A stretch of 64,000 nucleotides of DNA from Gyrodactylus bullatarudis. Taxonomy: Eukaryota > Platyhelminthes > Monogenea > Gyrodactylidea > Gyrodactylidae. Below, one piece after another: positions 18,600 to 54,902 of the stretch; position 1 is the first letter of the stretch; every line of letters begins with the position of its first letter. Below the pieces are notes generated by a model. That model was not told where the DNA came from. It did not search any database and worked only from the letters and a program-made list of their open reading frames with translations. The DNA lies in NCBI GenBank assembly GCA_012064415.1, contig SSNU01000063.1:903977-967976 (forward strand), written 5' to 3'. The translations under genes and the position numbers were made by a program.

Positions 18600-21551
18600 A
18601 GGCATCTTGCTACAAATTACGAGTAACTATTGAAAAAATGTACACACGGACCCTATCATGTTGCAAACTTATTTTTTTTTAATTCAGAATAGATTCTGTA
18701 AATTTTTAATGAAGATATCTAACGCTTTTATTTCTGACTCTATCTTGGTTGACCAGAAATTGGTTTCCTTGCCTTTTGGAATAGGTCGTGTTCAAATACA
18801 ATTCTAAAATTAGAATCAATTCTTTCTTCATTAATTTTATTTTAGGGATTAGGAATAAGGGCTGTAGTCTCAGAGTTAAGACTCAGGGTGGTGAATATTG
18901 AAAGCAATCTCAATGAAATCTTCTAGACCTATTTTTAGTTTACTAGTAGAAGATTTCATTGAAAAAGTAAAGAAATCTTGTTTAAAAAATTAAGAGACAA
19001 TACTTTCTCATTATAGATTTGTACTTTACATTGAAATTGAAATAGGATAGTTGCATTTTATCATATTATCTGATAGAATTGAATTGGATAATTGTAACAT
19101 CTGTCTCCTTGTGAACTTTTGAATTGATTAAAAGTTTTCTATCATTCTTTGATAGACACTACAGTAATGTATGTAAGCTAATAAGATGGATTTTCTAATA
19201 ATTATGAAAATAAAAAAAAGATCTATAGGACACAGTGTAAAATTTCATGATTTAACAAACAAAAATTATTTGGATAGTCTTTCAATCAAGATGTAGAATG
19301 AAAAATGATTTATCTCCCTATGCTCAGTGTACTGCACTGGACTCATTGAGAGAGTTGTTTTCTTGCCTCTCACTTTCTTAGAGATTTTGTTTTCTCCTCT
19401 AACAAATTCACGCATTTGAATGCACTCCTCATGATCATACGAGGGATGAACGCTAAAAGTCGATCAAAAAGGGAAATCAAACCAAATTAATTTGGAGTTT
19501 TTAAGGAGATTTATGACACAAAAGTAATCATTTTTACTTCTACGTCTGATGCAGGGTTTGAAAAATTAGACTAGACTTTTATAAATGTATCCTCTTTGAT
19601 AAATCTTGCATCATTTTAGTATTCTCATCTCAACTCAGAACAAAAAAATCAGGAAAAGGATTAGGAAAAAAAATAATTTTCATTAAAAATGAATGAGAAG
19701 CAAAGTAGCATAATAATACCTTTATTGTCTTGCACAAAAAAATCAGGATTATCAATGTTTTCAACCCCTGAATTTGATTAATTATTTAGTTATTCCTAAT
19801 ATTATATTATATGAAAACTCACCGCAAGGGATTCGTTTTTATTTCATCGGTGTTAAAAAGCCCTTAGTCTCTTTGTCATTCAGAAAAATTACTGCAAAAC
19901 AAGAGGGGGCCAATGTTCTATGGATTAGTTGTTGAGAGAAAATTGCAGTTAGAGAGATATTCCAGGTAACACACCCTGTTCCCATTAAATTCGATTGAAT
20001 CTAAGACAAATAAAGTACTCTTTTAGATCATCCAAATCTGGATCACAAAGGAGAGAGAGAGAGAGAGATAAAATTGAATAAAATCTCAATGAGAGATAGT
20101 TCACAATGGAAATTTCATTTCAATATCAATTTATTAGCCTCACAACAGCCCACCACCCTTCATTTAAACTCTGCTCTCCATTATAAACTCAGGTCATTGA
20201 TTAATTACATTTGTATAAATCCTATTATGAATGAAAAAAATGCCTGTCATTGCTCGATTGTTTCTGTGGCAGTAATACCCAAATTTTTCGATAGGAAAAA
20301 TTGTAGTCGAAAAGTGTCAATTTCCAAATAAGCTCTGAGTCATTTGTATTTTATTTCAAGAGTTGATAAAAAATTCTTTAATCCCATATAAAATCAGTTT
20401 TGAATTAAAAAAAGACTAAATTAGTTTTTTCTTCCTGTCAGTAAGAAGAAAGTATTTTTTTCATATCCCAAATGATTCATTAAATATCCAGATGGACCTC
20501 TGACTGATAGAAAGTTCAACATTTAGGAACTAATGTTGATTAAAATTCATTTCCAGGGACTAATACACATATTCCAGAGAATCTTCAAATGGAAAGATGA
20601 CTAAATCCCAGAGAGAGGGCTAATAATAAAGCTTTAGAAATTCAGATACGATATTCAATTCAATTTTATGACTATTGAAAATGAATTGAAAGGAACTCTT
20701 TACGATGCAATAATTATGTAGGGGATTTTACAATGCACATTATTACAACAGTAGATATACAACTCACGTAACATATTCAAAAGACGCCCGAGAAAATAGT
20801 GATTGTCGAGACTTTTGATGAATCATAAATTTTATTGCACTTATTTTCTGCTTTAGTATCAAGTTTTCAAGATTATGATACGATTGATAGAACTTCTTAT
20901 TTTTAAAGCAAGTTATTGAAAAAATTCTGCCACAAATGTCGTATCATTCATCGACCGAGCTAATGAATTAAAATATAGACGAATTCCAGCTGCTGATATA
21001 TTTTTTTTTTTTGAAATCGAAAATTTTTATTTATATACAGAATTATAATGATTAAGGATTGTACAAATAAGAGAACAGAGAAAGAGTGTTCAATGTGCCC
21101 GGTGTGGAACCTTGGATCGAGAGTAAGGGGGTCCGAATAAGAGGTAAGATAGATACCACTACGCCACACCGGGCAAAGGCTTGTCGATATCTCAGGCTTT
21201 TGACAAATTACCTTTCAATGTTATTGTTATGGACTAGGCTATATGTATTGGGCAAGTAAGAAGAGTAGACGTATTGGGCTGGGACTTCATTAAGTCTCTG
21301 TCTTTCACCCAACATTCAACTGGAGCCAAATATTCTTCCCTTATTTGTATCTCAGATCAAGGACGATAAATTTAAACGTATTTAAAAACTAAAAAATCTC
21401 ATAGATTCGAAAATAGTATCGCAAACTTTGTACCAGATCATCTGGTCTAGATGCACATAATTGTTTTACTAACTTTTTAAAATAAAAATCTTATTTATTA
21501 AGTAAAATCTAGACTTAAAATAAAAAATAATTTTATTAAAAATTTGCATAT
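18600..21551. other. intergenic, no gene recognised
   Basis: AT-rich sequence between the Cys-rich gene and the 3' end of the Ly6-like gene. It contains a (GA)n run at 20050-20068 and a tRNA-like hairpin at 21097-21174. The open frame at 20074-20331 has no ATG start and no recognisable content. Confidence 0.5.
21097..21174 (-). repeat. tRNA-like hairpin (degenerate tRNA or SINE head)
   Basis: The two ends, GCCCGGTGTGG and CCACACCGGGC on the minus strand, form an 11-bp perfect stem closing a 78-nt segment. Just inside the 5' arm is GGCGTAGTGGTATC, which fits a tRNA A box, but the T-arm/B-box is not canonical and I cannot fold a clean anticodon arm. It is therefore called tRNA-like, not a functional tRNA. 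Confidence 0.5.
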
Positions 21552-22024
21552 CTACTCATGAATAAACTTGACAAGGAAAAAGGGTAAAAAGAGCAAGAAT
21601 TTCCATGATGGAATATTGGAAGAATTCTAAAAATATGATTAGAAATTACTTACTGGAACGTAATAATTACATTGATCACTGTCGCAACAATTAACACATG
21701 TCCAATCACGGATGTTCGAAACTGTACATCTTTCGGATAACATGTCCTTTTGAGCTTCGCATGCAAGCTTAGTTGTACAACCTTTACTAACAAAAGGTCT
21801 TCTTTCGTCCAGAACAGTCCAAAAAGGAGGAGCTTTATTTAATATTATGGTTAGATAAATTTACTTCGGTATTGAACAACTGAAATGCAATAATCTTGTG
21901 AAGGTTGGCACTGAACAGTTGATGAGATGCAATCTTCCCAATTACCAACTACATTCTCGCATTGATAACATTGAAGAGAGTGAGTATTTTGGATGAAATA
22001 AGACAAAATAATAAAAAATAGCAT
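21552..22024 (-). CDS. GPI-anchored Ly6/uPAR-type (Quiver/Sleepless-like) protein
   Basis: Complete three-exon gene: 22024-21865, 21832-21654, 21626-21552, joined by introns of only 32 and 27 nt (both GT-AG, frame kept), giving 137 residues. The product starts with a signal peptide (hydrophobic residues about 1-18), then the Ly6 hallmark LQCYQCEN, scattered cysteines, and the closing CVNCCDSDQCNYY motif (CC-x3-4-CN) of a three-finger fold. The last exon adds a small-residue stretch (NSSNIPSW) followed by a hydrophobic tail ending near KFIHE, as expected for a GPI-attachment signal. It should sit on the outer plasma membrane; insect relatives such as Quiver/Sleepless regulate channels or septate junctions, but no specific role can be claimed. 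The start was taken at the ATG at 22024 because the more upstream in-frame codon is TTG. Confidence 0.85.
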
Positions 22025-22148
22025 TTTTTTCAAACTTCCACTATTTATAAAAACTTAAATTTAAACAACAAATTAAGTGTGAGAATTTTGTTTATAATCA
22101 TCTTGAAATTTAAGTTTGCATTGCTTTTGATCAGATCTGATAAAAAGA
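22025..22148. promoter_or_regulatory. 124-bp divergent promoter between Ly6-like and LONP1
   Basis: The two start codons face away from each other with only 124 bp between them, so both promoters must overlap here unless 5'UTR introns extend further. On the minus strand a TATAAATAG lies about 20 bp before the Ly6 ATG (22043-22051), close enough that its UTR would be very short. No element was verified. Confidence 0.4.
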
Positions 22149-25100
22149 ATGAACAGAATCATCTCCTGCCGTATTACAAATGTCCTTCGTAGAAACTACT
22201 CCTTTTGTCATCAAAGTATTTTAAATTTGTCAAAATTTTCTCTAAAATCTTATCAACCTATAGTTAAAGTAACTCTTGGATAATCATTTTTAGTTTCATA
22301 ATTCCCCAATAAAATTTGATGGTTCTTTCAAAAGCAACAGAGGATCGATGCAAGAAGATCCTAGTCGGCATAATGCTCTCTCTACTCAAATAATACCTGA
22401 AAATTTTCCTAATGTTCCCATAATTCCCATTGAGGGGACTCCTCTTTTTCCGAAATTTGTTAAAATGATTGAAATAACTGACGAAAATCTTATGACTATT
22501 ATAAGAAGGAAAATGAAACTTAATTTACCATATGCTGGAGTATTTCTAAGGAAAAATTCATCAGATAAACCTCTTAATGATATTTCTGAAGTTCATAACG
22601 TGGGTACATTTGTACAAATCCCTGAATGGGATGACTTGGGAACAAAAATTCGTTTATTAGTTATTGGTCAGCGAAGAATTCAAATTGTCCGATCAATTAA
22701 CGATGATCCATCTCTAGTGGAGGATTTAGATACTCCTGAAACTCCTACCCCGAAGCCTGCGTTCAAACGAAGACTTAAACGATCATCACCAAAAACTGTT
22801 GAAACTGATGATCTTAAAATAGATACAGTAACAATGGCTGAGACAATAAATTTGTATCATGAAGAATTTGAATCCACTCAAGAAATTAAGGCATTGAGTG
22901 CCGAAATTGTTAAAACTATAAGAGACATAATAAATCTTAATCCAGTCTATCGTGAAAATGTATTGGCAATGTTGCAGGCTGGACAGCGAGTTGCTGATAA
23001 CCCTGTTTATCTAAGTGATCTTGGAGCAGCACTCTGCGGGGCCGGAGAGAATAATGAAATACAAAATGTGTTGAAAGAGCTCAATATTCCTAATCGCTTG
23101 CGATTGTCCTTAGACCTGGTTAAGAAAGAATACGAACTTGGTAAACTTCAGGCAAAGATTGGTCGTGAGGTTGAAGAAAAGGTCAAGCAGCAACATCGAA
23201 AATACATGCTTACAGAACAGCTAAAAGTTATAAAAAAAGAACTAGGCTTAGAGAAAGAGGATAAGGATACTATTGTCGAGAAATTCCGATCTCGCATCAA
23301 GGACATGAATGTACCTAAGCATGCAATGGATGTAATTGAAGAAGAACTCAACAAAATACAACTTCTTGACAATCATTCTTCAGAATTCAATGTTACACGA
23401 AACTATTTGGACTGGCTAACAAACCTACCATGGGGTGTTTCCAGTGTTGAAAATTTAGAATTAGACCAAGCAAGAAAAGTCTTGGACGAGGACCATTACG
23501 GAATGGAAGATGTTAAGAAGCGAATTCTGGAATTCATTGCTGTTAGCCAGCTCAAAGGCTCAACTCAAGGTAAAATACTCTGCTTCCATGGTCCTCCTGG
23601 TGTTGGAAAGACTTCAATTGCCAAATCAATTGCTCGTGCTCTTAATAGAAATTATTTTAGATTTTCTGTTGGTGGCATGTCTGATACATCAGAAATTAAG
23701 GGTCATCGTAGAACCTATGTCGGTGCCATGCCAGGAAAGATTATCCAGTGCTTTAAAAAAGTCAAAACTGAGAATCCTCTCATTCTTATAGATGAAGTGA
23801 GTTTAGTAGAATTTCAAGGTGAATTGCCTACCAATAATTCTTTTAAAATAGATTGATAAACTCAGCAGAGGATTTCAGGGTGATCCAGCTTCTGCAATGC
23901 TTGAGCTCCTTGATCCAGAACAAAACTCGAATTTCCTTGATCATTATCTTGATGTAACTATAGACTTGAGTAAAGTCCTGTTTATTTGCACTGCTAATGT
24001 TCTTGATACAATTCCTGAACCCTTGAGAGATCGCATGGAACTCATTCAAGTATCTGGCTATGTACCCGAGGAAAAATTGGCGATTGCCAATAACTATTTG
24101 ATTCCTACAGCTGTAAAGAATGTTGGTCTTAAAAAGGATGAAATCCAGATTGAAAATGAGGCTATTCAAAAGCTCGTTAAGCAATATTGTCGAGAATCAG
24201 GTGTAAGAAATTTGCAAAAGCATATTGAGAAAATTTGTCGAATTGCTGTCTACAATATTGTCAATAAAGAAAAGACCGCTCCAGTTCATGTTAAGTCAGA
24301 TAATCTCACAGATTATGTTGGTCAGGCCATTTGGCAATCAGAGAGACTTTATGACTCCATAACACCACCTGGCATCGTGATGGGCCTAGCATGGACAGCT
24401 ATGGGAGGCTCTGTCCTCTTTCTCGAATTAAGCATTAGAAATTCTTTAGCTTTGAACCTCAGTAAGACAATTGAAGAGGATGATTCAGATAATTGGCCTT
24501 CACGTAAAAAGAAACCCTCATCAAGCGATGATGGTCCAACAACCAAAGATATCTCATCTCTCCGTGTTACTGGCAGTATCGGACGGGTGATGCAAGAGTC
24601 AATATCAATTGCAAACACCTTTGCCTACTCCTACATTGCTAATGGAGCTCCTGGTTTCCCCGGTACCATGAAATATGAAAATTCCCTGATCTCCAAGGAT
24701 CTCTCAAAGAAGGCTCTCAAGTTTTTAACTCAATCCTCCATGCATCTCCATTTGCCACAGGGAGCTGTTTCCAAAGTGAGTGAAGCAGCTTGAACTATCT
24801 CAACTGTTCGTCTTATGGTGATAATAATTTAAAATATTAATATTTTCTTTTAGGATGGACCCTCTGCTGGTATAACCATTGTCACTTCATTGCTAAGTCT
24901 GGCTATGAATAAAGGAGTTAAACCAGATTTGGCCATGACCGGAGAAATTAGTTTAACCGGTAAAGTTTTACCAGTCGGTGGAATTAAAGAAAAGATTATT
25001 GCAGTGAGTTTAATGACCTACTCATGTTTTAAGCAATAAGTATCTCTTTATTTGCTAGGCAAAAAGATCCAATGTCAAGGAGGTAATTATGCCAGAAGCC

Positions 25101-25211
25101 AATAAAAAGGACTTTGAAGAACTGCCCGACTTTATCAAGGATAATATTATAGTTCACTTTGTCTCTCATTATTCTCAAGTGTTCCCAATAGCCTTCCCTA
25201 ATCTCGAATAA
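22149..25211 (+). CDS. LONP1: mitochondrial Lon protease
   Basis: ATP-dependent serine protease of the mitochondrial matrix that degrades damaged proteins and takes part in mtDNA maintenance. Five exons: 22149-22268, 22294-23796, 23852-24775, 24854-25003, 25059-25211; about 949 residues, matching the usual ~950. Exon 1 encodes an Arg/Ser-rich targeting presequence ([17 protein letters not shown]). Exon 2 carries the LON substrate-binding domain, the coiled-coil [11 protein letters not shown] region and Walker A GPPGVGKT (about residue 473); ILIDE begins Walker B and is completed across the next junction (DEIDK). Exon 3 has the rest of the AAA+ module and PPGVVMG-type start of the protease domain. 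The catalytic serine is in DGPSAG (about 853) and the lysine is the second K of GGIKEK (about 896); their spacing of 43 equals the family's. Intron 1 is only 25 nt; the others are 55, 78 and 55 nt. The presequence exon is less certain than the rest. Confidence 0.95.
22269..22293 (+). other. 25-nt intron 1 of LONP1
   Basis: GTAACT...TTTTTAG, 25 nt, phase 0. Without it the presequence frame hits a stop and the conserved Lon frame begins only at an internal ATG at 22348. With it, a basic presequence joins the Lon frame directly. Confidence 0.7.
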
Positions 25212-25348
25212 AAATTCCACAAGACATGTATTTAACTATAGAAAGATTTTTATGATTTTTAATAAAATTTAATTTTTTCTCAAACGATTTTATTGAATAT
25301 CAAAATGCCAAATTCTTTGAACGAAATAACATTTTTCTTCTAGATAAA
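25212..25348 (+). terminator. LONP1 3'UTR and possible trans-splice acceptor before ACL4
   Basis: AATAAA-type signals occur at the LONP1 stop (25207) and near 25259-25265. The sequence then runs into TTTTTCTTCTAG (ending at 25343), five bases before the ACL4 ATG at 25349. Only 137 bp separate the two coding regions. This is the arrangement expected for a polyadenylation signal followed by a spliced-leader acceptor, although a 5'UTR intron within a separate transcript would look the same. Confidence 0.45.
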
Positions 25349-27342
25349 ATGGGAAAGTCTGTGATAAAGAAAAAGGAAAATACTATAACAAAGAAGAAAA
25401 ATAAAGTTCTGAAAGATCTCAACCTCTTGGAATCGGTTAACGTCAAGGGGCTATCTGACATTGAAATGTGTCATGCTTACGTTTCGCGTGCCACCGAATT
25501 TGAGAATGACTTCAAGCCCAACAAAGCTCTCGTCTTCTACAACAAATGCATTGAAATTCTCAATCCTAAGTCTGCTGAGAACAAAGATTACTTGGATAAT
25601 CTCATCAAATGTCTCGAGGCATCCGCATACATTCTCATTGATTTAGATCGTAAGGAGGAAGCAAGAGAACGACTTCTCAAGGTCACTGTACTAAATCCGA
25701 ATGTTGGCTACGAGAAATACATGTTCCTCGCTCAGTTATCTGATGGTGAGAATGCTGTCAACTTGTATGACAAGGGAATCTACACAATTGAAAATGAAAT
25801 TCGAAATTCAGCCTCAGACACGGAAAAGGTTAAAAAGCTCTCTTTTGATCTTTCCCAATCATATTGTGCCTTGGCTGAAATATATATGACAGATCTTTGT
25901 GATAATCCAGACGCAGAAGAAAAATGCAAAGAATATGTTGAAAAGTCGAAGAAAACCTGTCCAGATAATGCTCAATCTTATTTGATTGCTGCCAGCTTTG
26001 CTACTGTCAAGGCTAATAATGAAGTTTGTTATGATTTTAATGAAAGAAAAATCTGTTAACTTTTTATCAAACTATTTATTTTAATCATTTATACTACACG
26101 TATTCTCTTCTGATGTTATTTATTTTTCGTCTTGTTTATTTATTCAGTTTTTGTAGAGTCAGATTTCCTGGACTTCCTTCTCTTACTACGACCTGATTTG
26201 GGTTTTCTTGAATGACTCCGTCTTGCCTTACGACCTCTAGATTTACTTCTTCTTGCCGATGAGTTGTTGGTATCTTGAGAGTTTTTCATTTCACGTTCTT
26301 GAATTTGATCTTCCATAATATTTGATGTTCCTCAAGATTCTCCTATATACTTTATGAATGAAAAATACTACCACTTAATCAATTTAACTTTTTCATTCAG
26401 ATAATCTTGTTCTATGAATTTTAAAATTTACTAAAATTGTAACTTTTCTATACTATTATAATTGGAAGATAAATCTCGAATAAAATTTTTATTGACTTCA
26501 ATAATTCAATAGGAAGCAAAATCTAATCTGAAAAAGTGTCTCGAACTCTGGTGGCCTCCTGTTAACAAATTTCTCGACGAACAAAAAACTGAAACTGACA
26601 AGAAAGAATCTAAAATGGATGATGAAGACGACGAAGACAATGAGGATGAAGGTGGACAGATCGATCTTGAAGAGGTATTTTCAAATCTATTTGCATTTTC
26701 AGAACGTGCATTCATGAATCATATTTCCTTTCAGCTAACCGGAATTCCCTTCCAAGCACACATATCCATGGCTAAAAACCTGTATGAGGTAGAAATGTAC
26801 CAAGTAAGCACTTGAATGAGCCCCTGAAAGTTTTCATCCTAAAAAAATTCTCTTTTCCTAGGAAGCTGTTGATGTCCTGGAAGTAATCTTGGAAGAAGAT
26901 GATGAAGATCCAGAGGTAACTCCTTCATACTTTCATCTATTTCTTCTAGATTTACTACCTATTAAGCCATGCGGGCTCCAAATTAAATTGGAAAGAAGAA
27001 GACCCTGACAAGTTGAGATATTTTGCCACAATCTGCAAAGTTATCAGTACAAAGATGCAAGACCAAGAAGTCTGTGATGAAATGAACAAGATTCTTGAAG
27101 GCTTGCCAGAACCTAAAGGTGATTTATTCAGATTAACTTTTACCTGTGTATCATTTTGATTTTAATCAATAACAATACTTTCAGATGATGAAATGGGGGA
27201 ATTCGAAATACCCGATACTGATGAGGATAGTGACGAATATGAGACTATGGACGAGGATGAAGATTCTGATGAAGATTCCGATGCTGACTACGATAATAAA
27301 GATGATAATAAAGAATCTGAAGAGGAGATGGATGACAAATGA
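25349..27342 (+). CDS. ACL4: TPR protein, ACL4-type chaperone of ribosomal protein uL4
   Basis: Six exons: 25349-26023, 26513-26674, 26735-26803, 26862-26915, 26950-27118, 27185-27342; all junctions GT-AG with consistent phase (first donor is GTTTGT). The product (about 428 residues) starts with a basic stretch (GKSVIKKKE), then helical TPR-like repeats (for example NKALVFYNKCIEILNP, and later KNLYEVEMYQ joined to EAVDVLEVILEEDDEDPE and ILYLLSH) and ends in a very acidic tail of Asp/Glu runs. The 'VLEVILEEDDE...YLLSH' block and acidic tail fit the ACL4 family, which binds newly made RPL4 and escorts it to the nucleus for 60S assembly. It follows LONP1 on the same strand by 137 bp. Intron 1 (489 nt) contains an antisense basic-protein gene; the other introns are 33-66 nt long or slightly more. 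Function is by family; TPR content and architecture are visible. Confidence 0.8.
26140..26316 (-). CDS. 58-aa Arg/Ser/Lys-rich basic protein nested in the ACL4 intron
   Basis: A single-exon frame from ATG 26316 to TAA 26140-26142 lies antisense inside ACL4 intron 1. The first 20 residues are polar and mixed (MEDQIQEREMKN...), and the rest is RS/RK-rich: 21 of 58 residues are Arg or Lys and 12 are Ser, in runs such as SARRSKSRGRKARRS and GRSKRRKSRKS. Codon choice makes it GC-richer than the surrounding intron. A TATATA lies about 30 bp upstream of the ATG and AATAAA overlaps the stop. It could be a sperm nuclear basic (protamine-like) protein or a small RS-domain protein; neither has a diagnostic domain and it has no cysteine, so the role is inference. 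Confidence 0.6.
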   Translation of the reverse strand: MEDQIQEREMKNSQDTNNSSARRSKSRGRKARRSHSRKPKSGRSKRRKSRKSDSTKTE

Positions 27343-28053
27343 TCTATTGAAATCTTATTTTGAAAATAGAATGATTTTTTATCTATTACAGTTTCTTTCA
27401 TTCTTTGGATCAGTATTTTGAAATAGAAAGCCCTCATGACCCATTGTTCCATCAGTGGGACACGATACTTTCTGAGCTATATAATGAAAGATATTTGATG
27501 TATCAGTAAAGATGGCTTTTTACCGATGATAACCTAAGATACTTAAAGAAAGGGGAAAAAAAGATAATTTTCCATCGTAAAAAATTAGCTGTCAAATGTG
27601 CAATCGCTTGCTCGGAGATTTCTTTTCAAAAATTGGTAATTTATATTTAAAAACATACTCACAAGCAATGATGATGTTTAAAAAAATTCTATTTAGAAGT
27701 TATGCTTAAAAAATCAATCCTAAAGTGGTTATTGGGATGACTGTAGTTTAGAAGATGACTAGTTTTAAAGCCAAAAAATGCCAATTTTAACCTCAGTTAT
27801 CTTATTTTCAATTTTGTATCAGATGACTATGTTACAAACTTTTTTAAATAAAAAGGAATTCAGATTTTGAATCAGCGTAATTATTTTGGTGAGGTGTTAT
27901 GAAAAAAATAATTTGGGACATTAAGGGTTAATTAGTAGATGAAACTTGTATACATTATCTACACTGTTTAGTTCTGTATTTTTAATAATTATTTGGCACT
28001 AAAAGCTTTCTCTCATGAATAGAATGTGAGCAATTATAAAAAACAAACCCCTT
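27343..28053. other. convergent intergenic region between ACL4 and PIGN
   Basis: AT-rich 3' flanks of two converging genes. No gene, repeat or RNA recognised. Confidence 0.5.
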
Positions 28054-30651
28054 TTACATCAGTATCTTTGGTTCTATTAATAAACCTATAAAGATACAAA
28101 TTATGTATTGAATAATGTCAATATAAATATTTGCAAATGCTTGAGACTTGTTGACAAACAGGGAGGATATAAGAGGCAGATAAAAATTGATTCGCAACAG
28201 CAGAAACTTTTGGTTCTTTCTCCATTGTTCCGAGTCCTTCTTTCTATGCATGAAAAAAGATACTGCCTAGAATACAAGAGTATAGATAAAGTCTTCAAGT
28301 GAGCATATCCAAGATTCAACTTACCATTAGAATTGTGTAAGGGTGCCAATGTTGTAGGTTTGCAACCATTAATTTTGAAAATTTCTCACTAGAACAAAAA
28401 GAACAAGAAATTGGATTAGAAGGATCTACTTACTTGACAAATAACCCAAAGAGTTGGCCATTCACAAGAATGATTCGTTTCAGGGAATTCTTGAGGGAAG
28501 GTGAGCTGTATTCATAATTCACTTCAGATAAATCACTGGCTTCGAGTGGTGAATCCAAAAAGTATTCATTCATCAAATGCATAGATATGGACCAGAGAAT
28601 TTCGATTCTGAAACATGTTAATTAAAGTTTTTATTGGAAAAGAAATCCATAAAAAACAACTATAAAGCTCGAAAAATCAATTTATCCAAATAAGACTCTT
28701 TTGAGACTATCAAATATACATCCACTTTGGCTTCGAAGAATCGCCGCCTCTCCTTCACTTTTCAGTAAAAATTCGCCACCTTGACTGACTATTTATTCCA
28801 TTACTATTTTAAATAAATTCTTTGAGAAAAAAATGTTTTTTTCTCTTAGAATTTGAGAAGAAAAAGACTCGTATTTCAATCTACTCTATAAGAATTGCAA
28901 ATTGAAGAGACTCACGAATTGAATGAATTGTAAATTGGCACACTGTAAATCAGATAGTCAAGTTGATGATCTTCTCTTCTTGTTCCTTTCGAGTTTGAGC
29001 AAAAACCCCTTGTTAAAATATAGCCAATGGAAATACCTGAACAGATTACATAAATAAAATTATAAATTCATACATAAATATTAAAAATGCATGAGTGATT
29101 AATGTAATTAATAAATATTGGGGTATTACAATGTTCCATGCTTTAATATAAAATTGTTGTTTTAACCGAGAAAAACACATTTTTGAAAATCAAAATGTTC
29201 TGATATATACAAAAATCTCATTTTCCCTAAAATCATCAAAATTGACATAATCTCCTAGGAATTTCTTTCAACATGTGAAGAAAGACTGAGTTTTTACCTT
29301 AAGCCCTAATTTTATTCAAAATTAGAAAAAACTATTCAAAAATCGTAATTTTGTCCTTTCTTGTAGCAAAATTCATTGAGAAAATCTTGGCGCGTGTTTA
29401 AAAATTGTCGTTTCCAATCGAGATTTTGTATATCAGAACAAACTCGAAAACGTATAGTTTTTTAGGAAAAATGCTCAGTTTTCGATTACCTTCAAAATGA
29501 GATTAAGGCTGCGAAAAGTTGAAAATTTTGTCCTACTCTAATAAATATTTTCAAGATTACTTACAAGTATGAATAAAAATTGCAAAATTGATCATATTTA
29601 AACTGGGAGTATACGGTAGTTGGTACTTAATATGAAGATATCTGGTTGATAAAACGATGAATGACATCAAAATCTAGGAAGGAGATAAATGTTAGGCTTT
29701 GACATATGGTATATATTGATATAGGGACTATTGTTTAAACCTTGATTGTTTCAAAAACCTCTCGAAAATAAAATAAATAGAGCTCAAGTAAAATAAATAC
29801 AAACTAGATTCAGATTATAATCTGAAATTGATAATTCTGAATCAAACAAATTTTTTCTATAACATTACTATGACTTTATGAATACTCACGCAATAATAAT
29901 GAGGCCATGAATATTTGTTGAATTTGTTCGGCAAAATTGAGCACATTCTCCAACAGAGGAATATCGATCCAGAGAAATAGCTTTAAGAGTAAGTATAAAA
30001 TCTTACCTTATTTCAAAATCATCAGAGTTGAGGAAGGCATAATTCAATAAGAGGATTATCCAGACTAGAAATCTTGAACTATGGAACTTCTTCCTATTTC
30101 CCTGATAATAAACCGAGCTTAATGTCAAGCAAAGTATGGTCAGGTGATTGATCCAAAAGTACTTTAAGGATAAAATCTAAATTCTATTAGTTTCTATGAA
30201 GATACCATAAGAGTTGTATATGCTAACGTTGAAATGTTGGTTAATTTGCCAAGAATACTATTTTTGATGATGCGTTGGAATGAGAAAATCTCAAATTGCG
30301 CAAAAACAAAACAGATTGGCACTCGACATAATAGAAACTCGTCCAGAGATACGTGAGAAACTAGAAGTAAATTTTTATCAATTTCATATCGATATTAGAC
30401 TTTTTGATTAAAAATAATACTTGTGAGTAGATTTAAAAAATATAAATTAATTTAAGCTCACAGATAAAGAGAATCACGGAATATGCTAAAAACCTGAATA
30501 AATTGATTTTCTGGCGAAAGCCGAAAGATACAATCTGATCCAAAGTTAAGGTAAAGAGCAAATTCAAAATCCATCTCTCAAAACGAGGAAATGATTCATA
30601 GAAAAAGTACCATTTCATCAAATATTCTCGATAGCTAACCAAATCATCCAG
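28054..30651 (-). CDS. downstream exons, probably the membrane part of the PIGN-like gene (uncertain model)
   Basis: Minus-strand coding pieces follow the PIGN catalytic exons: 30651 to about 30433 (WYFFYESFPRF..., hydrophobic end), 30101-30007 (a Leu/Ile-rich membrane segment), 29980 to about 29890, one near 29030-28920, 28610-28430, 28390-28330, and a last one of about 190 nt ending at TAA 28054-28056 with a hydrophobic tail. The short GT-AG intron 30006-29981 (26 nt) fits the local style. However the reading frames of the 30101-30007 and 29980 exons do not join cleanly in the frame that looks best, and I could not align the last exons to known PIGN C-termini. They may contain an unseen exon, a sequencing error, or belong to a second membrane protein gene. 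Confidence 0.4.
29190..29445. repeat. inverted repeat inside a PIGN-region intron
   Basis: GTTCTGATATATACAAAAAT at 29196 has an inverted counterpart (AGATTTTGTATATCAGAAC) at 29421-29439, with weaker pairing on either side. It is a short foldback of about 25-40 bp arms in noncoding sequence. Confidence 0.5.
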
Positions 30652-31857
30652 CTAAAAGAATTAAAATATTTGATTACCTCATTGGACTCGGGAAAAACCT
30701 CCTCAAAAGTTGCAAGACTAGGAATTTCAATGATTCTTTTCCCTTGGAATTTTAACTTTTGAATCTACAATAAGGTATAAAAATATGCTATGAAAATTCG
30801 AACTCACCAAAACAAGTCGCTTAGTGTGCTCAACTAAAGCTCGGTAAAGATTAATTTTATTTTCATAATCCAGATTAAGCATTTCGATTGGTAAGTCGCC
30901 CTTGAGTTATATAATTTTCAATTCAAAACTTACAGTTGATAAGACAGGTATTTCATTGCCAAGTAAGAGAGAAATTAGGACGGAAAAATCTTCTTGTTGC
31001 ATAGGGGTTTGGCTATTGATTCCAGATTTAATGTAAGCTCCAAAAGCCAATAACTGAACTGTAGTTTCTTCTTTAGTATTTCCACCATGGCCACCCTCAG
31101 CTAATGCTCCATGATCGCTTGTTATGATAAATGTTGAATCGCTAAATTCATGATCAGACAATTGAGATGTGAAATTCTTTAGATTTTCAAATGTTCTCGC
31201 AAGAATTCTTTCAAGAACATCTACAGGTTGGCCTAAAAAATGAGAAACCAAATCTGGACTTTGCAAGTAGAGAAAAATCAGCTTCTTATTTAGAGGATGC
31301 TGGTGTGAAAGATTTGGAAAATGTTCCATTAGCTTTTGGAAGACAAAATCATCGATTTTGTCAACATAGTTTGGCCTAAATTTAAACTTGTACTGATTTT
31401 CTGAGTAAAGATCAAAGAAATCTTTTGAATTGTCAGATAATATATATTTAGCGAAAGTCTCATTTTCTCCAATAAGAAGATTGACATTTTGTGAATGAAA
31501 TATGTTCTTGTCGAAATCTAAAATGAAGATACTTTTATTACTTTTAAGAGAAAATGGATTTCCCTGTATACCTGTGAACAGGCTAAAGTGACGAGGTCCT
31601 GTTTCTGTAAGGCCAAAAGTCTTCACCAGACTATGATAGGAATTTACATATTCTTTGATGTAGTCCTTTAAATCGAGTTTTTGACTCAGACCATCAAGGA
31701 GAATTACAAAAACATTTTTGCTTAGAACAGGAAAAGTTTTCGACTGATTCTGAGTTGATTTTTTTAAATCAATAAGATGTGTCTCATCGAAGAACTGATA
31801 GTATAACGAAACTAAAGATACGTAAATGAACAATAAATAGTTTGAGTGCTTAAGCAT
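30652..31857 (-). CDS. PIGN: GPI ethanolamine phosphate transferase 1-like, catalytic exons
   Basis: PIGN adds ethanolamine phosphate to the first mannose of GPI precursors in the ER lumen. Exons 31857-30934, 30900-30808 and 30764-30678 are separated by introns of 33 and 43 nt; a 26-nt intron (30677-30652) leads to the downstream membrane exons. The start is ATG 31857, giving an N-terminal signal-anchor (YLLFIYVSLVSLYYQFF). The alkaline-phosphatase-like lumenal domain shows VFVILLDGL (metal site), LTETGPRHFSLFTG (nucleophile region, compare PTESRPGH), FIITSDHGALAEGGHGG (metal-binding SDHG/HGG) and, after the 33-nt intron, PVLST/GDLPIEML, matching the PIGN 'SVGILPxxYL' site. The membrane-spanning C-terminal part is described separately because its exon chain is unclear. 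Family assignment is strong; PIGN over PIGG/PIGO rests on the LSTGDLP block and the ITSDHG context. Confidence 0.85.
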
Positions 31858-33601
31858 AAATTGTATATTGTTGAATGTATAGTATAATCAATATTTTGAA
31901 TATTGGTTGATTAAAACAATTTATAAAATATTTACCAAAAAAAAACAATGATATACATCACAACGAGTTAAAAGTTTACTACCAATCCTAAGTTTTATGT
32001 TAGAGTGTGCGGTTGGCAGTAAAAAAACGTTTATAATTATGTTGTGTTGTCATGTGAGTTCTCAAGTTATTTATTCAGAATAATGTGTTTCAATTTCTTC
32101 CAAAACTTGATTAGTTGCCAACATCTTTGAATTTTAAATCTAATCTAATTGGCAGTCTCATTAATTGAGATTCATTTTTCAAATAAACTTTTATTTTGTT
32201 GAGAATATAAAGGTTTGAGCAAACAACTCGGAGCCCTCATTTCAATCATGTATTTATTCTTTAAAAAGTAACAGTTAATAGCAGAAAAATATTTTTTTCA
32301 TAGTGAGTTCATCTTATCAAAAATATATATTCAATTCAGTTACCGGCTATGTTCGTGATCTAGGACTGTTCTCTCTAAAACGTCTGAGATCACATTTATA
32401 GTCGATCATTTGAATTATTGAACAACTCGGATTTCTTGAAAAAAAATTTTTATGAATGTAATTTTTAATTTTATTCCTCATAATTATTAATGAAGACCTC
32501 ATTCAAAACTTTTTCGTGAATGTTTTTTCCGACAAGAATAATTTTTTTCTATACATTTGTTTAAATTTTAAACTTTCAGGACAATTTTTTTCATTTCAAA
32601 AAACATAATCAAATAAACTTAATAATGTAAAGTTTATGCTGCAAAATTTAAATAAATTTATATCCAATTAAACTCTTAATTTTTGTTTAATAATATTCAT
32701 TCTAAAGGGTTGAAATAATTTATAAAATATTGCGAGTTGTTCTGGGATTCATGACTCCTATGGTTAAAACTTTGATCATCAATGGAGATGAAGATAATCT
32801 AGTTCTCATTTATTGTTCTTTCCTTTTAGAGAATTATAATTTGAAGCATAAAATTCAGATTTACAAGGATTTGTCAAGTTGTATAAGTTCGTTAAAAACT
32901 AAAACTGTAGCTAGACTTTCTGGAATCTTTCAGGCTTTGAGAGTATTTTTTCTATTTTTTATTTGTATAACAGATAAATTGATATAATTTATGATTTTTT
33001 TATTCAAATAAAAAATATTCAATAAACGAATCCAAAACATTACTTGTCAATATAAATTAAAACAAAAATTCACTACAAAACTTGAATTGTTTACTCTAGT
33101 TTTCTCAAACTGTGGAAATGAGATATTTTTCACTCGAGTGAAAAGCAAGTGTGATTCAAAAGAGTTTTTATAACTTCTCAAATCGATCATTTTTTATATC
33201 TGATGAAAAGTGAAAGATTGTGGTCATTTCTAGAGTTTATTTGAGTAGTATGAATCGCTTCTTTTGGATTATCAAATTTCGATGCAGAGTGCAACCTTGA
33301 AATGCGTGATAATGAGATCATAGATCAACATAATCTATATTTTATAGTATATTATAGTAGACACTCACACATAATAAGACACCTCAACACATATGAGATT
33401 TGTCTTTTGAACGAATTAAATAAGAATGTGAACTTGCATGAACGAGTTTCGCTGAAAATGTCTGTTTTGATCATTTTTACTTTAAACAGCTAACGTAAAC
33501 GTATTTTATTCGTGTTGTACATTTGTCAAAGAGAACGAAAGAGATATTCGATAAATCCCTTGTAAATCAAAAAGAACTTGGAAGTAACTATTAGAAAAGG
33601 A
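31858..33601. other. intergenic between PIGN and the EF-hand gene
   Basis: AT-rich, mostly without recognisable content. One plus-strand frame from ATG 32751 to 32987 (78 codons, mixed hydrophobic and charged residues, hydrophobic C-terminus) is protein-like in composition but has no recognised domain or splice context. I leave it as a candidate only. Confidence 0.4.
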
Positions 33602-33716
33602 GTAAGTACACTCTCATATAATTCTATAAATCCACTTCTCTATACTAATGTATTTGATTGGGATATTTATATTTTTTAAATCTCTGAACCCCTCAATATT
33701 TTCCTATTTTTTACAG
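33602..33716 (+). other. 5'UTR intron of the EF-hand gene
   Basis: A GTAAGT donor at 33602 and a pyrimidine-rich TTTTTTACAG acceptor at 33716 bound a 115-nt intron just upstream of the 12-nt exon that carries the ATG. The upstream exon is noncoding. Confidence 0.5.
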
Positions 33717-33723
33717 ATCCAAT

Positions 33724-34367
33724 ATGAGGTATGTTAATTTGTTGATGAAAAAAAGAAGGTTCGATTTAATTTTGGGTATTCCTTTCCCATAGGCGATTCT
33801 ATCGAAGAGAAGACGTTGGTCGTCGACAGAGGTTAGTTGATCTATTTCGTAGAATGGATGTTAATCAGGATCGGATCCTTACCAGGAATGAAGTCAACTG
33901 TTTCCTCAGACAAAATGGATACGACCAAGCAGCCATTGCAGTAGGTCAATGGAGTTATTACTTTTGAGAATTTTTCCACTAACAAACATTTTATCTTTAT
34001 CAAGGGCTTCTGGCAGACTTTTGATTTGAATAGAGATTGTCAAATCACGGCAGAAGAGTTTAACCGAGTCCTCGACAGACTACCCGATGACTCAATCGAG
34101 TAAGTGAACATATTCTTATTTGTTTATTCAAAATTAAATTTTTTATCTTCAAGTGAAGAACGTCTCAGAAGAGTTTTCAACCTGTTTGACGTGGATAATT
34201 CAGGAAGAATTGAACTTGAGGAAATTAAACAAATTTTATATCAATTAGGCAACGGTGGTAATGATGACTTGATCAGAGCCATCCTTGCCCAGAACGGTAT
34301 CTCACCAGATGGTGGTATTGCTTTCGATGATTTCCTGTTGCTCTTTTCTAATCCGTCCCTTGTTTGA
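33724..34367 (+). CDS. small EF-hand calcium-binding protein
   Basis: Four coding exons: 33724-33728 (only ATG plus two bases), 33793-33940, 34005-34099, 34154-34367; phases 2, 0, 2 and GT-AG throughout; 153 residues. It has a calmodulin-like layout with four EF-hand positions: DVNQDRILTRNE, DLNRDCQITAEE and DVDNSGRIELEE are intact 12-residue loops with acidic positions 1 and 12; the fourth (around NGISPDGGIAFDDF) is degenerate. The N-terminus is Arg-rich (RRFYRREDVGRRQR), unlike calmodulin, and there is no myristoylation Met-Gly. It should be a cytosolic calcium sensor; no orthologue can be named. An AATAAA lies near 34628. Confidence 0.9.
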
Positions 34368-35291
34368 AGAAAAAAACTTTAAGAACATCACAAGAATCAT
34401 CATTATCCACATTTCTTTGTCAAGAAAATATTTACAGATTTTTCAAAACATTTCCTGCTGGAATAGTCGTCAAGACTGATACACAATTTGAAAAGCAAAA
34501 ATTCCCATCCCATGATTTTAAATTTCCGTCTACATTTTTCCTTGGAAATCTGAAATCCTTTTTACGAGGAGAAATGATCAAAAAATATATTATATAAAAT
34601 CCTGTACAGATTTTTCAATAGTGAAACAATAAATTTATCTCATCCAAGAACTACACTGCTCAGATTTCTTTTCATTTGAATTGGTACAAATTTTGTCAAA
34701 TCGATTAAACCTATATCTAATGTATATTTCTGTTTTCAGCATTAAACATAGTAGAGATGCAAAAATATCAGTATCAATTGATCATTTACATTTTTAATGC
34801 AATATTTCAAAAATACTGCTAATTTCATCTGGGCCATTTTGATTGGTTCGTTTAAATTATTTTTTTTATTCAGTGAAAATTTATCGAATTTCATTTCTTT
34901 TCATAGAATTCAATCATCATGAAATAATCAATATATCTCTGCCTAAAATATTTTCATTTTACATTAAACGGGCTAATTTATCATTCATTACATTTGATCA
35001 CGGGAATATTTTTGTAAATAAAAAGATGGGTTTTTGACAAAATAATTTTAATAAAAAAATAAACCAATCTAAGAAATTTGGCTTTTTATGGAATGTTTTA
35101 ATCTTTGCTACATATATCCATAATACGATAATCTACATAGATAGGGTTGTCTAATACTTTGTGTGTGGATGACATCTGTTTAGTGAAGATTCTCACTTGG
35201 AAACATGATCTCTTACCAAATCAAATAGTCTCTCGTGATAATTTGGCACCTTTTTGCAAGCTAAGACAAGATGAAAAATAAACATAATACA
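34368..35291. other. convergent 3' flanks of EF-hand and ITPK1 genes
   Basis: Contains the EF-hand 3'UTR (AATAAA near 34628) and AT-rich spacer. Small frames here have no supporting features. Confidence 0.5.
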
Positions 35292-36300
35292 CTACATCTC
35301 ACTTGGAAAAATATTCAAGTCTATGAGGGCGATTTCCTTAATATTTTCACCAATTTTCCTTGTAATTAGCAGGTCCAGATTGAATACATCCAATTTAGAA
35401 TAATGACGAAATAGTTGACTAAACCTTTCTAGTTTTTTCTTCTCTTCATCGGGTATATCAAAAGATATCTTGAGAATGAAATCAAATCTTTTTACTTTTT
35501 TTGAATTCTTTTTAGTTTGGAAGGAAAAACTTTGATGAATTTCATTTGAGTTTTCGATAGATTCGATTTGTGTAACAAAGGAAAACTTTCCCATCACATA
35601 AATTTTTACAATAACTCCATTATGATTCAGAAACTTCTGACAAATGATGGGAAATTTAATCTGCTTTGTAATCGAATCAAACTTATTCATGAGAAAGATA
35701 CACTAGAAATTAAATGGTCAGTGTCAAATCAATACTTCATGCAGTTTTGAGTTTTTTCCATGGGAATTAAGTGACTTTATAACTTAACGATTTTATAAAA
35801 ATTTGAAGTTTTATACTTGTGGGAAATTGATTGATAACGCAGTCATTAAACTCTTCAAATGATTTAATAATCTGATATTCTGGGATAAAGGCTTCTATTT
35901 CTTTGTATTCATTACGAATTTTATCAATTATTTCTTGGCAAAATTCCATTTCATGTTGTCGATCTGTGAGCTTAGAAATGATATCAAACGAATTAATCGT
36001 TTTAATGCCAGACAATTTTTCCTAAACTATGACATTAAAGTTACTTTTTGCTTATCCATAAAAGATATTACTTCATTGTGATTACCTTCATCAAATTTAA
36101 AAACATCAAAGAATTTCGATATTATCAAATCTGGTTTGTAATCCAACGATTCGTCAAAATCGAAAACCTAAAAATAAATGATTCATTTAACTTACTAGAT
36201 TTATATCATAAATTTCATTAGAAAATAATTCAAAAAATCTTTCAGTTTTGAAAGTCTCAGATCGAACCTGTGAAGTAAGAAAGACTATTCTGATTTTCAT
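35292..36300 (-). CDS. ITPK1: inositol-tetrakisphosphate 1-kinase
   Basis: Exons 36300-36196, 36167-36045, 36021-35776 and 35702-35292; introns 28, 23 and 73 nt, all phase 0; 294 residues. ITPK1 phosphorylates inositol tri/tetrakisphosphates (ATP-grasp fold, cytosol), feeding InsP5/InsP6 synthesis. Matches in order: an N-terminal KIRIVFLTSQ strand, LDYKPDLIISKFFDV (compare DVIIHKLTDV), the INSFDIISKLTDRQHEM block (family: DP...LLDRSKSYEL), FPTSIKLQ with the ATP-contacting lysine, FPIICQKFLNHNGVIVKIYV (family: VVQNFINHNAVLYKVFV), and the terminal metal-binding LIDLNIFPSE (family: VIDINAFPGYE). The family's HGTxSHEM loop is strongly changed (IKSLSYKCIFLMN after splicing). The protein ends right after the metal motif, so it lacks the C-terminal tail of the ~410-residue vertebrate enzyme. 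Donor 3 is GTCACT, a weak site chosen because it restores the family alignment. Confidence 0.85.
36022..36044 (-). other. 23-nt intron of ITPK1
   Basis: GTAACT...GTTTAG on the minus strand, 23 nt, phase 0, joining MDKQK to EKLSGIKT in the ITPK1 frame. Without it the frame reaches a TAG within the segment. It is the shortest intron I could support in the window. Confidence 0.7.
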
Positions 36301-37386: not shown

Positions 37387-38286
37387 TCATAGATTAAATG
37401 TTCTGGTATAGTCGTACTCAATTGTGGGTATCACAGCCGAAACAAATTTCAAGAAAATCATAATATATTGAAAAACTTCGAGTTGAGCCCCATTTTCAGC
37501 AACAGTATTTATAAGTCTTTTCATAACCTCAGATTGCTTGCAAGGATGGATACTTGCCATAGAGACATTTTCGTAATGTGGATGTGATTCCATAGTGACT
37601 GTTTTCTTGGCATGATCTTGACTAAAATCCTCATACATTTGGTCTTCAGTGAGCAATTTACCATTCTCATCATAACCTTGAAGCCAGAGACGAGAAGTCC
37701 TATAATATTTATCATAAGTAATGTACAAGTCATAAGTACGCGAAGAAACTATGTCACAATCATCAGATAGTTTAAGATTATTTTTGAACTCGTTATTTAC
37801 AGTGGCCATATCAGAAGAGTCCAATAGACCAGAGTCAATGTAATTTTCAATGTCTAAAGGCTCGTTATCATCACTATCGGTGATATTTTCTTTCATTTGA
37901 TCAGCACATGCATCTTCTATATTAAAAGGCTTCTCTGTTAGTGATGTAGAGAAGTGATGAGTATCAACCCAACTTCCTTCATCAGTCTCAAGAACCATCT
38001 CCAAATTTTCATCGTGTTCGGAAACTTGTTTGAGTCGCTTACAACACGGGACACTACGTGTCATGAGAAATTGCTTATCTTTAGGCAGATATTGTTTAAT
38101 TTTACTTTCATCTCCCGAAGACCAAAACCAAGTAGGACAATGATACACAAGGAAGTCTCCAGCTGCAACAAACTCTTCCGGATTTATGACCCCAGTATCT
38201 CGGAACTGGGAATCTTTTAAAATAGGAGTTAAGATCTCAGCAAAGTTAAGGGCTGTCCTATTAATTGCCTGTTTTACTGATTGCAT
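37387..38286 (-). CDS. ATG3: autophagy E2-like enzyme ATG3
   Basis: Intronless frame of 299 residues (family about 310). ATG3 transfers ATG8/LC3 from ATG7 to phosphatidylethanolamine during autophagosome growth. The start is ATG 38286 because MQSVKQAINRTALNFAEILTPIL matches the amphipathic N-terminal helix of ATG3 that senses curved membranes; the longer frame to 38310 is not needed. Further matches: TGVINPEEFVAAGDFLVYHCPTW, an acidic flexible region (about 110-170) where the ATG7/ATG8-binding loop sits, RTYDLYITYDKYYRTSRLWL, the catalytic HPC motif (Cys about 249, in SMASIHPCKQSEVM) and the C-terminal FLKFVSAVIPTIEYDYTR. Lack of introns contrasts with neighbours that average several. An acceptor-like ACTTACAAG lies a few bases upstream of the ATG. 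Confidence 0.95.
   Translation of the reverse strand: MQSVKQAINRTALNFAEILTPILKDSQFRDTGVINPEEFVAAGDFLVYHCPTWFWSSGDESKIKQYLPKDKQFLMTRSVPCCKRLKQVSEHDENLEMVLETDEGSWVDTHHFSTSLTEKPFNIEDACADQMKENITDSDDNEPLDIENYIDSGLLDSSDMATVNNEFKNNLKLSDDCDIVSSRTYDLYITYDKYYRTSRLWLQGYDENGKLLTEDQMYEDFSQDHAKKTVTMESHPHYENVSMASIHPCKQSEVMKRLINTVAENGAQLEVFQYIMIFLKFVSAVIPTIEYDYTRTFNL

Positions 38287-54902
<16,616 letters not shown>

Follow-up and report, generated by a model that had tools for sequence, protein, structure and literature searches.

Probable introns of 23-37 nt form a separate size class in a genome that is most likely a flatworm's

Introduction

Very short introns, called microintrons, have been described in flatworms, including a free-living one (PMC6530080). 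Intron lengths of Opisthorchis felineus peak at 37 and 90 nt, and the microintrons, which were annotated with RNA-seq support, show a 5' preference and clustering. Their polypyrimidine tract is often (not universally) lost and their donors are nearer to the consensus. The same source attributes two short-intron peaks to Monogenea, namely Gyrodactylus salaris (Hahn et al. 2014, as cited by PMC6530080), a species of similar genome size class to the one studied here. For gyrodactylid assemblies, published values are 67-91 Mb, 31-39% GC, mean introns of 353-773 nt and low BUSCO scores of 55.6-63.4% (PMC12677651). A closer account of 23-33 nt introns in a monogenean was not found in the literature searched, which was thin on subscription papers.

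Two more distant systems are relevant. Dicyema japonicum is, like the present organism, an animal with very short introns, with a mean of 38.2 nt (PMC6736024). In Trichomonas vaginalis, type A and type B introns have non-overlapping lengths of 23-25 and 56-196 nt and class-dependent splice motifs; this organism is a protist, its active introns number 63 and their motifs are extended, so it serves as an analogy only (PMC12316389).

Here we analysed a stretch of 64,000 nt (C130:903977-967976, hereafter the window) from an assembly of 77.3 Mb in 471 contigs with about 30% GC, together with additional loci of the same genome.

Results

A sequence-only reading of the window had listed eight GT-AG segments, of 23, 25, 26, 27, 28, 32, 33 and 43 nt, as introns required by the reading frames. 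All eight were located at the positions it gave, with GT...AG ends, and the frames were open after their removal. The frame is changed by six of them (23, 25, 26, 28, 32 and 43 nt), and the 27-nt and 33-nt segments are interrupted by stops whichever of the three frames is read. The coexistence with introns of 50-80 nt was likewise borne out, as LONP1 holds further introns of 55, 78 and 55 nt and ITPK1 one of 73 nt. The putative introns of these genes are as follows.

21833..21864 (-), Ly6 gene, intron 1, 32 nt; changes the frame
21627..21653 (-), Ly6 gene, intron 2, 27 nt; 3' of the last cysteine of the domain; stop in each frame
22269..22293 (+), LONP1, intron 1, 25 nt; links a 40-residue N-terminal exon with the LON domain frame
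23797..23851 (+), LONP1, intron 2, 55 nt
24776..24853 (+), LONP1, intron 3, 78 nt
25004..25058 (+), LONP1, intron 4, 55 nt
26916..26949 (+), TPR-like gene (25349-27342), micro-intron of 34 nt; absent from the sequence-only reading
30901..30933 (-), PIGN, 33 nt; stop in each frame
30765..30807 (-), PIGN, 43 nt; changes the frame
30652..30677 (-), PIGN, 26 nt; changes the frame
36168..36195 (-), ITPK1, intron 1, 28 nt; changes the frame
36022..36044 (-), ITPK1, intron 2, 23 nt; changes the frame; the shortest found
35703..35775 (-), ITPK1, intron 3, 73 nt; weak donor (GTCACT); assigned by frame in this analysis

Seven of the eight segments fall in the 23-37 nt class defined below, and the 43-nt PIGN intron lies outside it, in the trough between two classes. 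LONP1 and ITPK1 were named from Pfam, ITPK1 also from PDB, and the Ly6 gene from Ly6-type families. The TPR-like gene showed a weak TPR match under the Pfam cut-off. The first PIGN exon contains a phosphodiesterase domain (Pfam), and a PDB search with this exon gave no match; the name PIGN is that of the sequence-only reading and is putative.

That conserved proteins demand the removal of these segments held in so far as the frames reopen, but overstates the case for the junctions of the window itself, where homology gives little support. In ITPK1 the Pfam match was confined to the C-terminal domain, the tested PIGN stretch had none, and in LONP1 the 25-nt intron is located 5' of the LON domain that was matched. 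Splicing scarcely altered the scores of the Ly6 gene: UPAR_LY6 gave 22.2 bits for the spliced protein versus 22.1 for exon 1 alone, and the CD59 score dropped from 29.3 to 25.9, with the spliced match then covering the domain. When the N-terminus of ITPK1 was aligned locally to a human sequence, the score was 47 for the spliced form and 46 if the 23-nt segment was retained, so the alignment is uninformative on that junction. A protein search with spliced ITPK1 covered 1243 candidates, and none reached E<=0.001. Because Pfam, PDB and this protein search left the micro-intron junctions of the window uncovered, other genes were examined.

Intact conserved genes were obtained by a chaperonin family search and a MutS search. 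For 11 micro-introns (25-37 nt) in these genes, the spliced protein and the PDB chain that matched it best aligned with no gap at the junction.

CCT4: 29 and 33 nt
CCT6: 31 and 30 nt
MSH2: 25, 33, 29 and 33 nt
CCT1: 29 nt
MSH6: 37 and 32 nt

Seven of the 11 change the frame and four hold an in-frame stop; for eight, the only source is the gene finder run with splice weights. An unweighted alignment guided by proteins placed CCT introns of 30, 31, 33, 54, 58, 59, 60, 63, 68, 69, 109 and 118 nt.

Intron lengths were also estimated from the exon coordinates of family matches without use of the sequence, an approach that reproduced four CCT introns exactly (58, 59, 68 and 109 nt) and a fifth within 3 nt. 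Applied to myosin, kinesin, kinase and SNF2 genes, it gave 59 estimates: 28, 34 and 35 nt (from myosin, kinesin and SNF2 genes), 40 and 49 nt, 18 of 53-82 nt and 36 longer. This set skips 11 pairs in which an exon was missing, and leaves out SNF2 C308 (overlapping matches), a mirrored C163 copy and the myosins C327 and C470. With three of the 59 estimates in the range, micro-introns are a minority in internal domains. Introns whose length is a multiple of three may be read through and hence missed.

To compare the length class with chance, we employed a gene finder built on codon frequencies, start and stop codons and one dinucleotide pair, with near-zero length preference and no splice-site model. 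The data (304 kb) comprised the window, 20 loci chosen by place, two MutS loci and nine chaperonin loci, overlapping ones being dropped. All 256 dinucleotide pairs were run unweighted, and 115 of matched frequency were compared with GT-AG. At 23-37 nt, GT-AG yielded 19 introns versus a matched-pair mean of 4.25 and a maximum of 9. The counts on either side were low, with one intron at 12-22 nt (matched mean 2.55) and one at 38-52 nt (5.41); at 53-82 nt, GT-AG gave 23 versus 12.16, a number reached by 3 of the 115 pairs. The excess at 23-37 nt was found in genes scoring >60 (9 versus 1.70), in the homology-chosen loci (9 versus 1.74) and in the window plus the 20 loci chosen by place (10 versus a mean of 2.51 and a maximum of 7). 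GT-AG ranked top at this length in all four data splits and was reached by none of the 115 matched pairs. In total coding score GT-AG was not top among the 256 pairs, because AT-rich pairs allow the model more freedom.

The unweighted GT-AG run formed clusters at 23-37 and 53-72 nt. With trained splice weights, 184 introns were called in 39 genes: one below 23 nt, 26 of 23-37 nt, four of 38-52 nt, 46 of 53-82 nt and 107 longer than 82 nt, so that long introns are common here, unlike in dicyemids, and the micro-introns make up only a small part. The separate mode that had been predicted near 25-33 nt was thus seen against matched controls as a class of 23-37 nt. The micro-introns are a separate size class and not the tail of one distribution.

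We curated 14 genes with 47 introns: 22 of 23-37 nt, one of 43 nt, 21 of 54-78 nt and three longer. The intron order (5' to 3') in nine of these genes, in which the short introns precede the longer ones, is listed below.

CCT8: 32, 69 nt
CCT1: 29, 118 nt
CCT2: 28, 63, 54, 59 nt
CCT4: 29, 33, 58 nt
CCT6: 31, 30, 109, 57 nt
MSH2: 25, 33, 29, 33, 72 nt
MSH6: 37, 32, 58, 56, 66, 64, 62 nt
LONP1: 25, 55, 78, 55 nt
ITPK1: 28, 23, 73 nt

Micro-introns occur in runs of four in MSH2 and of two in MSH6, CCT4, CCT6 and ITPK1. The micro-intron lay 5' of the longer intron in 32 of the 36 within-gene pairs (p=0.0004, 20,000 permutations); the four exceptions are in the window's TPR-like gene and PIGN. On raw, uncurated gene models the 5' bias was not significant (p=0.20), because these models extended into neighbouring genes. 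As neighbours or junk, curation removed introns of 56, 212 and 137 nt from CCT8, 190 and 642 nt from CCT3, 383 and 245 nt from CCT1, 119 and 723 nt from CCT2, 480 nt from CCT6, 142 nt from MSH2, and 283, 1136, 1620 and 444 nt upstream in the LONP1 model; the whole HSP60 locus L036 (242, 241, 29 and 33 nt) was also removed. PIGN is represented by three introns only, and about 26 further called genes, several with retroelement-like frames, were left out.

In the curated set, the micro-introns and the introns of at least 53 nt differed at the donor. GTAA opened 19 of 22 micro-introns versus 4 of 24 longer ones (p=4.1e-6), a contrast that emerged post hoc from these data as one of eight features tested. 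It appeared in the window genes (8/8 versus 1/8) as well as in the other genes (11/14 versus 3/16), and survived leaving out any one gene (worst p=8.8e-5). Position +3 was A in 21/22 micro-introns versus 9/24 longer introns, and position +5 was G in 10/22 versus 20/24; the +5 contrast was missing in the window genes alone (3/8 versus 5/8). Among 11 unweighted short calls outside the curated set, only one began with GTAA, which could be either noise or counter-evidence.

Mean donor scores were 4.64 for micro-introns and 4.74 for longer introns, and acceptor scores 4.86 and 5.16. With GTAAGT-like donors and TTAG acceptors, the micro-introns have a U2-type donor and GT-AG ends. The pyrimidine fraction in the last 12 nt before the acceptor was 0.69 in micro-introns versus 0.73 in introns of 53-82 nt. 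The candidate branch-point motif TAAY was found in 12 of 22 micro-introns versus 7.06 expected (p=0.016), a weak signal from one of six motifs tried.

Genome-wide, the pattern GTAAGT...TTTTTAG occurs at 302 places (161/141). A reversed control pattern is commoner (584/573), so only the length spread was used. Among the 100 places listed of the 302, 47 were 23-32 nt long versus 32 expected if flat (p=0.0015); after removal of three repeat copies and the window's two places from that listing, 42 of 95 remained versus 30.6 (p=0.0098). For GTAACT and GTTAGT in the same pattern, among 100 places listed of 475 and 503, respectively, the length spread was not significantly different (p=0.68 and 0.20). 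The GTAA contrast therefore rests on the 22 plus 24 curated introns.

The sequence-only reading had suggested a dicyemid or a flatworm lineage. The COX1 reading frame, on a mitochondrial contig of 14,926 bases, is open with TGA read as Trp; of three AAA codons within the alignment to solved COX1, two fall on conserved Asn, one on Asp and none on Lys. With AAA read as Asn, the host genome is most likely that of a flatworm. Echinoderms share the flatworm mitochondrial code; an echinoderm host is presumably excluded. NAD3 lies upstream of COX1 and the rRNA matches downstream, and the order NAD3, COX1, rrnL, rrnS is typical of parasitic flatworms. Dicyemids have mitochondrial minicircles, and a dicyemid lineage is unlikely because the COX1, NAD3 and rRNA matches sit on one ordinary contig. 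Of the two proposed lineages, only the flatworm was upheld. The size of the genome, its GC content of about 30% and the length of the mitochondrial contig would fit a small monogenean, perhaps a gyrodactylid.

Discussion

The segments are very probably genuine spliceosomal introns with GT-AG ends that belong to the flatworm microintrons; the genome has two well-separated classes of small introns as well as long ones. Most likely a U2-type spliceosome handles them through intron definition. According to this interpretation, the ordinary major spliceosome would excise the micro-introns from pre-mRNA, mostly near the 5' end of genes, and donor, putative branch point and acceptor would nearly touch within each intron. 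Removal at the RNA level, the major spliceosome as its agent and the branch point are what we infer from the genomic sequence. As in the flatworm microintrons described so far, the short class stands apart, another short peak and long introns occur beside it, and there is a 5' preference; the classes here lie at 23-37 and about 53-82 nt, separated by a trough at 38-52 nt, whereas intron lengths of O. felineus peak at 37 and 90 nt (PMC6530080). Unlike in that account, loss of pyrimidines before the acceptor was not found here, the two classes having about equal fractions, and donor scores were equal overall but with enrichment of A at +3. The phenomenon is very likely real and of a kind ordinary for a flatworm, at the short end of the known class; what is notable is the length of the introns and the gap between the classes. 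Since flatworm microintrons are already described in PMC6530080, the surprise is less than the sequence-only reading had supposed.

Frame breaks alone would look the same if the segments were assembly insertions or pseudogene lesions that resemble introns. We consider this very improbable, as lesions of that kind are at odds with GT and AG ends, with a tightly confined length class whose count greatly exceeds that of the matched pairs, and with recurrence in otherwise intact conserved single genes such as those of the CCT and MSH families. It is equally improbable that GT...AG pairs were fitted to noise, as chance short gaps either in frame or shifting it. GT and AG are common, matched pairs average several such introns in the same 304 kb, and the 11 short unweighted calls outside the curated set are partly noise-like; however, no matched pair equalled the GT-AG count, and at eleven junctions the fit to solved structures is exact. 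That the segments are kept in mRNA and translation skips them, through bypassing or frameshifting, or that they are eliminated at the DNA level, has a negligible probability, because their donor and acceptor profiles are those of ordinary splice sites and their Opisthorchis counterparts are annotated with RNA-seq support (PMC6530080).

Splicing of ordinary, if very short, introns remains the preferred reading, and within it the GTAA start of the micro-introns is possibly a new feature. A bolder proposal, which we regard as tentative and rather unlikely, is that two intron types are told apart at the 5' splice site: micro-introns with GTAA and a relaxed +5 position, placed first in genes, and introns of at least 53 nt that favour G at +5 (GTTAGT, GTGAGT), with lengths of 38-52 nt nearly forbidden. 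If true, this would be an animal counterpart of the type A and B introns of Trichomonas, and would suggest a second early recognition mode in which, for example, U1 and U2 need not adjoin. Should the donor difference hold, the organism would be a tractable animal for studying the splicing of introns too short for U1 and U2 side by side.

The analysis adds a flatworm genome whose conserved genes hold introns near the known lower limit for animals. Genes of this sort would be modelled wrongly by gene-prediction and read-mapping software whose minimum intron length is close to these sizes or exceeds them, a problem that PMC6530080 raises for Clonorchis. Our guess would be that missed micro-introns may contribute in part to the low BUSCO scores of the gyrodactylid assemblies (PMC12677651).

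Additional observations

At 21097-21174, the window contains a block flanked by an 11-nt inverted repeat (GCCCGGTGTGG / CCACACCGGGC) that looks like part of a repeat element. tRNA calling over the window called none. Reverse-transcriptase-like frames are present at 51164-51445 (-) of the window, a frame for which Pfam gave no match at E<=0.001, and in L015, where they presumably represent one Penelope-type element and a second LINE-type one. On contig C163, mirrored myosin copies with identical match scores lie at about 68.6-71.8 kb (-) and 78.9-82.0 kb (+), either an inverted duplication or an assembly artefact. Adjoining the genes with very short introns, a single-exon frame at 37387-38319 (-) of the window encodes an autophagy active-site domain (PF03987, 193 bits).
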